Origin: Verrucomicrobiaceae bacterium
Lineage (GTDB): Bacteria > Verrucomicrobiota > Verrucomicrobiia > Verrucomicrobiales > Verrucomicrobiaceae
Assembly: GCA_947458455.1 (NCBI GenBank)
Contig: CANGYJ010000015.1
Span: forward strand, 1-64,000
Reading direction: 5' to 3'
Length of the DNA: 64,000 nucleotides
Of the stretch, positions 53,687-57,607 are shown piece by piece. The notes beneath the pieces are model-generated. The model searched no databases, was not told where the DNA came from, and saw only the letters and a list, made by a program, of their open reading frames with translations. Position numbers and translations under genes: made by a program. Numbering within the stretch: position 1 is the first letter of the stretch; every line of letters begins with the position of its first letter.

Positions 53687-56600
53687 ATGACCCGTCTCTT
53701 CCTCGTCCTTCTGCTTTCCGTGTGCTCCGTGGTCAAAGCCGCCGATCTCTTCGATAAACAAAACCTCGCTGCGTGGTGCATCGTGCCGTTTGATGCCGCG
53801 AAGCGCTCTCCCGAGGCCCGGGCCGAGATGCTGGCGAAGATGGGACTGAAAAAAGTCGCCTACGACTGGCGGCCCGAACATGTGGCCGAGTTTGAACGGG
53901 AGATCCTCGCGTATCAGAAGCACGGCATCGAGATGTTCGCCTTTTGGGGCACGCATGACGAGGCGTTTCGGCTGTTTGAGAAGTATAAGCTCCATCCGCA
54001 GCTGTGGGTGATGATGAAGGGCGCCGGCGATACGCAGGAGGCGCAGGTCAAATCCGCCGCGGAAAGTCTGTTGCCCATCTTGACCAAAGCAAAAGCCATC
54101 GGAAGCCAGGTCGGCATCTACAACCACGGCGGCTGGGGCGGCGAGCCGGAGAACATGGTCGCCGTGTGCGACTACCTCAAAAAGAATCACGGCACCGACA
54201 ATATTGGCATCATCTACAACCTCCACCACGGCCACAGCCACCTCGACCGCCTGCCTAAAGCCATTGAGGCCATGAAGCCGCATCTCCTTTGCCTCAACCT
54301 CAACGGCATGGACATCGCAGGCGATACGAAAGGCCGCAAAATCCTCCCGCTCGGCGTGGGCACGCAAGATGTGAAAGTGCTGCGCCAAATCCGCGCCAGC
54401 GGCTACAGCGGCCCGATTGGCATCCTGAATCACACCGACGAAGACGCCGAAGGCCGCCTGCTCGACAACCTCGACGGTTTGAAATGGCTCGTGCCGCAAC
54501 TCGATGATGCGAAGCCGGGCGAGAAGCCGAAGTATCGGACGTGGACGGAGAAAGCGGAGAGCAAAGGGCAGAGAGCGGAGAGTTCCAAACCGGAGAGCGT
54601 TGCGTCATTGAGCGAGGAATTTGGCAAGGCGTTGAAGGGCGGTTGGGTGATCGATGGCGATGCGGAGTATGCGAAGCTGCCGTTCACGGTGGAGTGCCGC
54701 GCGAAGCTGGATGGCAAAAAGGGCTACAACATCCTCGTCGCGTCCGAGACGAAGTCCTCGGCCACGCATTGGGAACTCTACTCGCACGCGGGTCGCGGCA
54801 CGCTGGCGCTTTTCATGCCCGGACGCGGCGGCGATTACGATTCGAAGGTGGCTGTGTGCGACGGCAAGTGGCACGACTTGCTCGCGAGCGTCGATGAGAA
54901 GGGCGTCGTGATGTGGGTGGATGGCAAGCAGGTCGCCACCGTAGAACGGACTTTCCAGTCCGTTCCCAATCCGAATCGGACTGGAAAGTCCGATCTACGT
55001 CTGGCCTTCGGCCGCCTCGTCGAGGGCGGCATCGGCTGCGATGGCCTCATCGACGACGTGCGCCTCTCACGCGGCGTCATGAAGCCACGCAAAGGCAACG
55101 CCCCACGCCTGCGCATGGACAACACCCTCGGCCTCTGGGACTTCGACAACCTCAGCGACATCCTCCCTCCCCCCGCGCCGAAAGCCGCTGAGTTCAAACC
55201 CGACCTCCCGCCGCTCAACAAAGCCGACAACCAGCACTGGCAGGAGTTCGTCAATCGCGAACGCACCTTCGACTTCTACGGCAAGCAGGCTTTGAAGTTC
55301 ATGAATCAAACATTGCCCGATCTCATTCCGCCCTTCCCCGGCATGGACGGCGGCCAGCAAGGCCACTGGGGCAATCAAAACGACCAAGTGACGTGGAAAG
55401 ACGGCCGCTGGGCGGCGAGTGACCTGGGCAATGTGTTCAGCGGTGTCTTCAAAGGCGCGGGGCTGACGATTCCGAAAGCTGTATGCATTCGTCACGGCGA
55501 CCATGCGGCGGTTTTTGATCCTGAGCGCATGTCTTGGCGATTGGAGTGGTCTGGGGGCTTTTTGAAGCTCAATGACAACCGCCACGGTTTCATGGCTGGA
55601 GCACCGCTAGATGGAAAAGTGACCTCCAAAGAGGAACAGCGGCGCCCAGGCACGTATCGCGGCTTTTTTCGACTCGGAGCTGATGCGCTCATCATCACCA
55701 GCGCGATTGATTTGCCATCACCTGCCGCCGCTCAATGGCCGCAATGGATCGAAACGAAGGGTGAACTTGGCACGCAAGCGCCCTTCGCGACGGATCGGAT
55801 CACGATCCCGTTCGAGAATCCGTATGGCACGCTGTTCTTCATCACGGCGCATGATTTCTTCAGCGATGGCACCGCCACCGTCGCCACGATGACTGGCGAA
55901 GTCTGGCTGGTGAAGGGAATCGACGATAAGCTGGAGAAACTGCGCTGGAAACGTTTCGCCACCGGCCTGCATCAGCCGCTAGGCATGAAGATCATCAAGG
56001 ACAAGCTCTACGTGCTCGGCCGCGATCAGATCACCTGTCTGCATGATTTGAATGGCGATGACGAAGCGGACTTTTATGAGTGCGTGACGAATGAAATGCA
56101 GACTTCGCCGGGTGGACATGATTTCATTGTGGGGCTGGAAGCGGACAAGGAAGGAAGATGGTATTTCGCATCGGGGAATCAGGGCGTGTGTCGGATTGAA
56201 GTGGGGCGGGCACTCTTGCCCGCCGAAAGCGCTCCATTGCGGGCAAGAGTGCCCGCATCACTTCAAATCCTCGCCACCGGCTTCCGCAACCCCAACGGGC
56301 TCGGTCTCTCGCCTGATGGCCGTTTTGTCACGACGAGCGTTCAAGAGGGCGATTGGACGCCTGCCACCTCCATCTGTCAGATCGAACTCGGCAAGAACGA
56401 GGGCGCGCATTTCGGCGCAGGCGGCCCGAAGGACGGCAAGCCGCCGGAGCCGGTGCTGATGTACATGCCGCGTGGCGAGGACAACTCGGCGAGCAGTCAG
56501 GTTTTCATTCCTGAGGCAGCCGGGACGGCTGCACCACATTCATGGGCCTCGCTCAAAGGCGACAACAACTTGATCCACCTCTCCTCGGGCGGTGGCAGTG

Positions 56601-57607
56601 CTTGGCTCATGATGCGACAGCAGGTGAAAGATCGCTGGCAGGGCGCGGCGGTGAAGATCAGCGGCAATTTCGACTCCGGACCGCAATGCGCCCGCTTCAA
56701 TCCGAAAGACGGCCATCTCTACGTGAACGGCATGCAGGGCTGGGGCAGCTACACGCCAAAGGACGGCTGCTTCCAGCGCGTGCGCTTCACCGGTGGCGAC
56801 AAACCGGTGCCAGTGGCCTTTGAAGCTCGCGACAACGGCGTGCTTCTCCGCTTCAACCGACCCGTGAAGGACGCCGATGCCGCGACGTGCTTCGCGCAGT
56901 GCTGGAACTACAAATACGGGCCGCAATACGGATCGCCGGAGTATTCGGTGAAGTATGCCGACACGCCCGGCCATGATCCGCTCGAAGTCCGCAGCGTGCA
57001 GAAGCTCGACGGCGGCAAGACGCTCTTCCTCGAAATCCCGCAGATCGTCACCGCCAGCCAGATTCATCTCCGCACCAGCACCGGCCACGACATCTTTCTC
57101 ACCGCCCATGCTTTGGCCGAACCCTTCACCGACTTCCCCGGCTACGCCAAGATCGCCAAAACGAATCACGCCGCCCAAATCGGCCTCGAAGCGCCGACAG
57201 CCAGCAAACCGAACCCCTGGGCCAAAGGCGAAGGTGGTCGCGAAATCGTCATCGAAGCCGCTTTGGGCCTGCAATACGTCCAAAAGCAACTCAAGGCCAA
57301 AGCGGGCGAAAAACTCACCATTCGCTTCAAGAACCCCGATGTGGTGCCGCACAACTGGCTCCTCGCGAAGCCCGGTTCACTGCAAAAGCTCGGCGAGAAG
57401 TGCAATCTCATGATCGCCGACCCGCAAGGCATGGCCAAACACTACGTCCCCGACAGCGGCGACGTCATTGCCTACACCGACATGACGAATCCGAAGGGCG
57501 AGTTTGTGATTCACCTCACCGCGCCGAAGGAAAAAGGCGATTACCCCTACCTCTGCACCTTCCCCGGTCACTGGATGGTGATGAATGGGGTTTTGAAGGT
57601 GGAGTAG
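53687..57607 (+). CDS. Exported multidomain protein: TIM-barrel-like, LamG, DUF6797-like, beta-propeller, cupredoxin
   Basis: A 1306-aa secreted protein. Signal peptide 1-19. Residues about 25-290 look like a TIM-barrel epimerase-type domain (AYQKHGIEMFAFWGTHDEAF, VGIYNHGGWGGEPENM). A LamG-like domain spans about 305-475. DUF6797-like sequence (HWGNQNDQVTWKDGRWAASD) follows to about 680, then a propeller domain of the type called PVC membrane-bound dehydrogenase. The end is an azurin-like cupredoxin: His1222 (VPHNW), Cys1290, His1295 and Met1299 (CTFPGHWMVM), a complete type 1 copper set, suggesting electron transfer. Three unrelated repeats are translated within it: heptamers (about 290-301), a GTAG palindrome (419-438) and a GCGGGCA palindrome (about 840-857). 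The overall activity is unknown. Confidence 0.85.
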   Translation: MTRLFLVLLLSVCSVVKAADLFDKQNLAAWCIVPFDAAKRSPEARAEMLAKMGLKKVAYDWRPEHVAEFEREILAYQKHGIEMFAFWGTHDEAFRLFEKYKLHPQLWVMMKGAGDTQEAQVKSAAESLLPILTKAKAIGSQVGIYNHGGWGGEPENMVAVCDYLKKNHGTDNIGIIYNLHHGHSHLDRLPKAIEAMKPHLLCLNLNGMDIAGDTKGRKILPLGVGTQDVKVLRQIRASGYSGPIGILNHTDEDAEGRLLDNLDGLKWLVPQLDDAKPGEKPKYRTWTEKAESKGQRAESSKPESVASLSEEFGKALKGGWVIDGDAEYAKLPFTVECRAKLDGKKGYNILVASETKSSATHWELYSHAGRGTLALFMPGRGGDYDSKVAVCDGKWHDLLASVDEKGVVMWVDGKQVATVERTFQSVPNPNRTGKSDLRLAFGRLVEGGIGCDGLIDDVRLSRGVMKPRKGNAPRLRMDNTLGLWDFDNLSDILPPPAPKAAEFKPDLPPLNKADNQHWQEFVNRERTFDFYGKQALKFMNQTLPDLIPPFPGMDGGQQGHWGNQNDQVTWKDGRWAASDLGNVFSGVFKGAGLTIPKAVCIRHGDHAAVFDPERMSWRLEWSGGFLKLNDNRHGFMAGAPLDGKVTSKEEQRRPGTYRGFFRLGADALIITSAIDLPSPAAAQWPQWIETKGELGTQAPFATDRITIPFENPYGTLFFITAHDFFSDGTATVATMTGEVWLVKGIDDKLEKLRWKRFATGLHQPLGMKIIKDKLYVLGRDQITCLHDLNGDDEADFYECVTNEMQTSPGGHDFIVGLEADKEGRWYFASGNQGVCRIEVGRALLPAESAPLRARVPASLQILATGFRNPNGLGLSPDGRFVTTSVQEGDWTPATSICQIELGKNEGAHFGAGGPKDGKPPEPVLMYMPRGEDNSASSQVFIPEAAGTAAPHSWASLKGDNNLIHLSSGGGSAWLMMRQQVKDRWQGAAVKISGNFDSGPQCARFNPKDGHLYVNGMQGWGSYTPKDGCFQRVRFTGGDKPVPVAFEARDNGVLLRFNRPVKDADAATCFAQCWNYKYGPQYGSPEYSVKYADTPGHDPLEVRSVQKLDGGKTLFLEIPQIVTASQIHLRTSTGHDIFLTAHALAEPFTDFPGYAKIAKTNHAAQIGLEAPTASKPNPWAKGEGGREIVIEAALGLQYVQKQLKAKAGEKLTIRFKNPDVVPHNWLLAKPGSLQKLGEKCNLMIADPQGMAKHYVPDSGDVIAYTDMTNPKGEFVIHLTAPKEKGDYPYLCTFPGHWMVMNGVLKVE
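54553..54587. repeat. Heptamer array translated inside the 1306-aa gene
   Basis: Five seven-base units (AGCGGAG, AGCAAAG, GGCAGAG, AGCGGAG, AGTTCCA) lie in the linker between the TIM-barrel-like and LamG domains. They encode KAESKGQRAESS. The period matches the arrays at 33048 and 40893 although the unit differs. Confidence 0.8.
54941..54998. repeat. GTAG...CTAC palindrome inserted in frame
   Basis: The 22-base arms GTAG(AAC)GGACTTTCCAGTCCG (54941-54962) and their reverse (54977-54998) differ by one base. A 14-base loop separates them. The element encodes residues 419-438 (ERTFQSVPNPNRTGKSD and neighbours) between two strands of the LamG domain. The GGACTTTCCAGTCC core is shared with the repeat at 13556-13620. 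Confidence 0.9.
56195..56267. repeat. GCGGGCACTCTTGCCCGC palindrome pair inserted in frame
   Basis: Perfect 18-base arms at 56206-56223 and 56239-56256 are reverse complements, and each arm is itself a hairpin. Outer flanks TTGAAGTG and CACTTCAA extend the symmetry to about 56196-56266. It encodes GRALLPAESAPLRARVPAS in the propeller domain. The core is related to the single hairpin at 60880-60897. Confidence 0.9.

Follow-up and report, generated by a model that had tools for sequence, protein, structure and literature searches.

We describe a 1306-residue gene (53687–57607, plus strand, a single open frame) in a stretch of 64,000 nucleotides at the start of contig CANGYJ010000015.1 of a Verrucomicrobiaceae bacterium (the window, by which we mean this whole stretch). 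The gene contains four repeats, all of them in frame; three have the anatomy of repetitive extragenic palindromes (REPs), and at one of these three sites the homologs of the gene carry hairpins of about ten different stem families or no insert. Our preferred reading, to which we assign a probability of roughly 0.8, is that several REP families are spread by transposases of the REP-associated tyrosine transposase (RAYT) type, which are HUH enzymes, and that certain protein loops in this Prosthecobacter-like group are slots for these elements, which are filled, emptied, refilled or exchanged. REPs in frame within genes are already known from Rickettsia and Opitutus terrae; the new part is the turnover of families in one slot, of which we found no prior report in the literature on REPs, palindromes and heptanucleotide repeats, most subscription journals lying outside the scope of that search. 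Because the slot ranges among close relatives from empty through occupied, by one insert or another, to decayed, it provides a natural experiment on the insertion of hairpins, their filtering by reading phase, their upkeep and their replacement.

Four translated repeats and their families

The second and third repeats are REP doublets. Site 2 (54941–54998, plus strand) reads GTAG-AA-CGGACT TTCC AGTCCG ... CGGACT GGAA AGTCCG-AT-CTAC and has arms of 23 nt that are 96% complementary and 14 nt apart. Site 3 (56201–56261, plus strand), which lies in a propeller loop, reads GTGG-GG-CGGGCA CTCT TGCCCG ... CGGGCA AGAG TGCCCG-CATCAC and has arms of 28 nt with 93% complementarity and a spacing of 15 nt. 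Site 4 (56516–56537), which is absent from a previous reading of this DNA made from its letters (the sequence-only reading), is a single REP on the minus strand, GTGG-TG-CAGCCG TCC CGGCTG-C; the element is GCAGCCGGGACGGCTGCACCAC and is translated inside the peptide PEAAGTAAPHS. Sites 2–4 have one architecture in common, in which about two bases separate a GT[AG]G tetranucleotide (GTAG at site 2, GTGG at sites 3 and 4) from a hairpin of 6 bp or more. Because of this common architecture the palindromes are not unrelated, as the sequence-only reading had taken them to be; its observation of three repeats in frame in one 1306-residue gene is confirmed and is extended by site 4. Sites 2 and 3 are inverted dimers, and thus REPINs (REP doublets forming hairpins) as defined in the excerpted text of PMC3116915, and site 4 is not. 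A strict scan for headed doublets over 464 kb of the genome found three, including sites 2 and 3, versus none in one shuffle.

Site 1 (54553–54587, plus strand) is a weak array of period 7 in the linker preceding the LamG domain. The heptamer array noted here earlier is real, with p = 0.001 in the host gene by a lag-7 test with base shuffles, but it is weak and is not listed by Tandem Repeats Finder at a score of 30. Period 7 is above chance at this site in homologs as well (p < 0.01 in 22 of 81), and the heptamer motifs differ between them (e.g., AGAAGTC, AAATCAT, GCGGAGA, and AAATCCG). A genome-wide heptamer search found three arrays in 464 kb, none of which has the site 1 motif. Heptanucleotide tandem repeats occur in cyanobacteria, and the site 1 arrays are similar to them in being period-7 arrays with different motifs; unlike heptanucleotide repeats elsewhere, they lie in a coding linker and several motifs are found at the same place in homologs.

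A structure model of residues 300–1165, built from 60 sequences, has a mean predicted local distance difference test score (pLDDT) of 88.4; positions in the model equal the residue number minus 299. Sites 2–4 are predicted to be loops between confident strands or helices, with block pLDDT values of 58–64 at site 2, 52–62 at site 3 (including a low-confidence helical turn), and 71 at site 4, and site 1 is a linker ahead of the modeled part. Mapping of the inserts on the model therefore bears out the suggestion that the repeats are in linkers or loops.

The homolog alignment comprises 85 distinct rows, after removal of 36 identical rows and of six that were duplicates or split halves. Site 2 is found in 11 rows including the host gene, with a mutated head in L085 and a mutated tail in L084, and the rows without it mostly have a shorter native stretch of EKPVQPLQGTAKPGG type. 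Site 4 is found in six rows including the host gene; in the others, some four native residues take its place. At sites 2 and 4, the elements seem to have replaced native codons rather than to have been cleanly inserted. In the Opitutae and Planctomycetes rows of the alignment, sites 2, 3, and 4 are all absent. To the idea that these segments are native variable sequence with chance palindromes we give practically no credence: it is refuted by the homolog comparison, in which distant homologs have other, shorter sequence rather than the same residues without palindromic DNA, and the elements are multi-copy in the genome, with control patterns at or near zero over all pattern searches.

The genome (G000, 5.35 Mb) contains many copies of each family, 56 for CGGGCA (the stem of site 3), 19 for CAGCCG (site 4), and 12 for CGGACT (site 2; at most one mismatch allowed), and no match to the control patterns. 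A search of the genome with PF01797 gave twelve matches, two of them in one frame. One of the matching genes (C7:60637–60864) sits among CGGGCA hairpins that span C7:60509–61687, and another (C4:208946–209164) is bracketed by CAGCCG copies (208866 and 209603); RAYT-type genes are therefore flanked by elements of both the CGGGCA and the CAGCCG families. Both open reading frames (ORFs) score above the Pfam cut-off for Y1_Tnp (PF01797), and each contains a tyrosine region in addition to an H-V-H motif. Based on the anatomy of the elements, we posit that REPs of several families, with sites 2 and 3 as REPINs, would be spread by RAYT-type HUH transposases and would land inside genes as well as between genes. 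Copies that are in frame and free of stop codons in permissive loops would survive as translated inserts, and a few loops may be so accepting as to be slots that are filled, emptied, refilled or swapped with other REP families or with heptamer arrays.

Occupancy of site 3 and of similar slots

The occupancy of site 3 differs among homologs both in presence and in family. Sequence is absent at sites 1–3 in row L099, and site 3 is therefore counted over 84 rows. It is occupied in 20 of these, and 17 of the inserts contain REP-like hairpins with about ten stems (families read by eye), in some of which the head is mutated or the stem imperfect. The cultured relative Brevifollis gellanilyticus NBRC 108608 (L137, identical to L017) has a copy of the gene in which site 3 contains a REP-like insert. 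The stems are CGGGCA (four species), GGAATTCC, CGAGTT, CAGACA (two), CAGGCT (two), CGAACT, CAGCCG, GGCATT with several hairpins (two), a CGGACA/CGGGCA hybrid, and CAAGCT (two); a common empty state is CRITGRDKLEV. Even close relatives of the host gene vary at this site, with L084, L120, and L158 empty, CAGGCT in L083, GGAATTCC in L002, and CAGCCG in L018. The tree used to count changes was built by a quick method from 72 rows with the site columns masked, four partial and nine planctomycete rows having been removed, and has poor support on 12 of its 69 inner branches. On this tree, site 3 has undergone at least 19 state changes and at least ten changes of occupancy, with the remnant in L009 scored as occupied. 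In that row, site 3 appears to hold a decayed, shortened element of the CAGGCT type, with the frame kept.

The junctions of the site 3 inserts recur across families. The sequence ATTGA stands before the head in nine of the 20 occupied alleles, which represent four stem families (CGGGCA, GGAATTCC, CAGACA, and CAGGCT), versus one of the 64 unoccupied rows, that row being L009. By eye, 15 of the 17 REP-like inserts have a common reading phase and 12 of the 17 end 5 or 8 nt ahead of one conserved codon. We considered whether the ATTGA flank is part of the element and rejected this, as it precedes none of 68 REP heads (three families) in the G000 stretches. The flank, the phase and the right-hand end argue for replacement in place, in which another REP family overwrites an occupied slot, by recombination or by a RAYT, with the outer flanks and phase kept; however, the left flank is a different one in 11 of the 20 occupied alleles, the comparison with REP heads covers G000 and three families only, ATT GAN could have arisen through convergence in codon use, and the exchange is read from alleles only. 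We consider such replacement possible, with the balance somewhat against it. The fuller proposal that these are cassette slots, in which REPINs of other families overwrite an in-frame REPIN time and again at its position with flank and phase kept, is in our view rather unlikely; if true, a RAYT-driven population of elements would diversify fixed loops of conserved proteins such as MutS, ClpB, and the propeller protein described here.

Slots in ClpB and MutS were read by eye in 30 loci each among the matches listed, with 48 genomes matched. The ClpB slot has a CGGGCA doublet in three species and heptamer-like or other sequence in others. The slot in domain III of MutS has palindromes of differing sequence in six species and 9-nt tandem units or plain sequence elsewhere. 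Across the MutS loci (L272–L301, query residues ~386–406), several species without a palindrome have the 9-nt tandem units, which are three-codon repeats.

The presence of tandem units of 9 or 7 nt in these two slots favors the alternative that structural tolerance alone accounts for the inserts, i.e., that exposed loops take almost any sequence and that REPs and heptamers are merely the commonest products, with no preference for a site and no exchange. The location of the sites in low-confidence loops of the model is consistent with this alternative, as are the site 3 inserts of L006, L085, and L121, which have no clear REP. In contrast, another low-confidence stretch (model residues 251–270, pLDDT 59–62) has no REP, a hairpin scan of the homologs found multi-row matches outside the sites only in conserved, uninserted sequence (near residues 729 and 900), and different families have the same right-hand junction at site 3. 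We judge tolerance alone to be a serious contender whose chances fall a little short of even.

We also considered a dependence of the family at site 3 on its copy number in the genome, and rejected it. Copy number fits in part for CGGGCA, which has 55, 21, 16, and 38 copies in the four species whose slot contains CGGGCA and 2–6 copies in most (seven) close relatives without it; the dependence fails for G029, G067, CAGACA, and CAGGCT.

Intragenic elements, reading phase, and DNA-level conservation

The preferred reading, REP families that enter genes and persist in permissive loops, extends beyond this gene. We assessed intragenic position with a two-sided codon score for 61 merged elements of three families, located in the window and in the stretches fetched; the fetched elements represent 13 of the 19 CAGCCG and 50 of the 56 CGGGCA places, among the matches listed, and the CGGACT copy at C8:302180 was left out. 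By this score 26 of the 61 elements are intragenic, and sites 3 and 4, which are below the threshold yet in the gene, bring the count to 28. REPs are extragenic by name; of the copies tested in this genome, close to half are translated, including those in MutS, ClpB, and RecD2; this position does not exclude membership among REPs, given that intragenic REPs have already been described in the excerpts of PMC3733652. It follows from the same count that one in-frame insertion is not unusual in this genome, contrary to the sequence-only reading, and that extension of proteins by repeats, which it had offered as a possible general mode, is general in this genome. Genes hold fewer elements than random placement would give, because ~82% of the sampled DNA is coding according to a custom gene caller.

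The inserts fall inside Pfam matches to MutS_III, ACR_tran, FAD_oxidored (two FAD oxidoreductases), PSCyt2, PSD1, and DUF7133, and between domains in ClpB and RecD2. DUF7133 matches nine of the 25 ORFs outside the window that contain an intragenic element (L199, L203, L206, L213, L219, L220, L234, L238, and L240), and on this raw count DUF7133 proteins may be favored hosts.

Two families have a dominant reading phase. Sixteen of the 18 intragenic CGGGCA elements are in one phase (peptides SDAGTPAR and AGKSARIT), and in all 16 of them the phase that gives RALLPA-like peptides is likewise open, over the element and the 10 nt to either side of it. The seven intragenic CAGCCG elements are all in a matching phase, with at least one other phase open. 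This bias suggests a peptide filter on tolerated insertions; it may also stem from the insertion itself.

At the DNA level, the inserts have low synonymous divergence. For site 2, the proportions of synonymous (pS) and nonsynonymous (pN) differences were calculated for ten carriers (L007 has a gap and is not among them), and the DNA alignment of the site is without L085. The insert has a pS of 0.126, compared with 0.335 for the flanks and 0.428 for the remainder of the gene; none of 205 overlapping 20-codon windows is as low. The pN of the insert is 0.080 versus 0.060 in the rest. Site 4 (six carriers, ten codons) has a pS of 0.138 versus 0.434, and site 3 (four CGGGCA carriers) has a pS of 0.116 versus 0.359. 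A compensated stem change at site 4, from CAGCCG/CGGCTG to CAGTCG/CGACTG, alters two residues. With a pS in the inserts of about one-third that of the rest, and with compensation of some stem changes, conservation appears to be stronger for the DNA hairpin than for the peptide. We tentatively attribute the low pS to upkeep at the DNA level, with one arm correcting the other or with renewal from other copies. Any of four causes could lower pS, namely insertion in the recent past, an exchange between species, correction between the arms, and a constraint that acts on the hairpin.

These comparisons also bear on whether the inserts are adaptive linkers that were selected for their peptide. The bias toward peptides similar to SDAGTPAR and SGAAVPAA though other phases are open, together with the retention of site 2 in 11 rows, supports such selection; however, site 2 has a pN close to that of the rest while its pS is lowered, site 4 changed two residues together with its stem kept, close relatives have an empty site 3 or another peptide there, and site 3 of the window is in the rarer CGGGCA phase. 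We regard adaptive linkers as improbable. The sequence-only reading had left open whether the elements are tolerated or selected as linkers: the phase bias suggests tolerance that depends on the peptide, and sites 2 and 4 speak against selection of useful linkers.

The elements resemble GTAG REPs and REPINs, as far as excerpts of the relevant papers describe them, in their GTAG or GTGG head, stems mostly of 6–9 bp, inverted dimers, flanking of RAYT-type genes, and the intragenic position of some copies. The excerpts of PMC3733652 report that most REPs are intergenic and describe intragenic GTAG REPs, whose number is highest in O. terrae, including two uvrA genes there that each have double insertions; they also describe recB of two Xanthomonas with different REPs at about the same site and GTGG in the GTAG-20 elements of O. 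terrae. An excerpt of PMC8266576 describes cleavage by TnpA-REP, for which GTAG is likely to serve as a guide. Unlike the GTAG REPs in the excerpts of PMC3733652, the elements described here are intragenic in 28 of 61 cases with a dominant phase in two families, and about ten stem families have used one slot across the genus, with similar slots in other genes. The Rickettsia palindromic elements (RPEs), summarized in an excerpt of PMC10969869 as in-frame elements of ~150 bp in ten families, are likewise palindromes that are translated in frame within unrelated genes; the excerpts of PMC3733652 place RPE-4 and RPE-6 among CGTC REPs. We set our elements apart from RPEs by description, given that they are 22–61 nt long and GTRG-headed and have RAYT-type genes beside two families, and that the named relatives are Verrucomicrobiota.

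Several observations weigh against the reading that RAYT-spread REP families turn over in slots. The family copy numbers in G000 are modest for REPs, none of the CGGACT copies (the family of site 2) in G000 is near a RAYT-type gene, the nearest PF01797 match being ~9 kb away, and both candidate RAYTs score below the cut-off of NCBIfam NF047646 (REP-associated transposase), at 60.8 and 64.7 versus 80. At site 3, the inserts without a clear REP make up three of the 20 occupied alleles. CGGGCA is abundant in G029 (43 copies) and G067 (20 copies), yet the slot holds something else in both, and CAGACA has at least as many copies in G067, G001, and G009 as in G020, whose slot has CAGACA. The sole exact copy of the CAGGCT family (ACAGGCTNNNNAGCCTGT) in G061 (C35:30805) and in G008 (C5:266598) is the copy in the gene, from which it appears that an in-gene element can outlast its family. 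The three CGGACT inserts are in phase 0 twice and in phase 2 once, and the phase bias is therefore not general. Covariation at site 2 is small, with two compensated pairs among seven distinct sequences, values reached in 23 of 500 and 11 of 500 shuffles. The intragenic calls rest on a custom codon score and on exact or near matches to the stems, and the genomes are mostly metagenome-assembled.

The host protein and other features of the window

The host protein is composed of a TIM-barrel-like part, a LamG domain, a sugar-dehydrogenase-like β-propeller, and a plastocyanin/azurin-like C-terminus. Pfam matches support the LamG domain, DUF6797, and the plastocyanin/azurin-like end, with the TIM-barrel-like stretch slightly below the cut-off; the NCBIfam matches, to azurin and to a PVC-type heme-binding family, are both weak and below the cut-off. 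The best match of the structure model in the Protein Data Bank is a glucose-dehydrogenase propeller. Among named records, relatives of the gene are found in Prosthecobacter and Brevifollis, in addition to many Verrucomicrobiaceae.

Close relatives also differ strongly at ~55649–55741 (residues 655–685), where a short FFRRGNEVNIVTS-type stretch in some corresponds to a longer FYRHGKEVIFSYS-type stretch in others. No repeat is evident in this region, and the variation suggests recombination between alleles. Lastly, a perfect octamer array of 16 copies, ACTCCACC, occupies positions 1–130 of the window, at the start of the contig.

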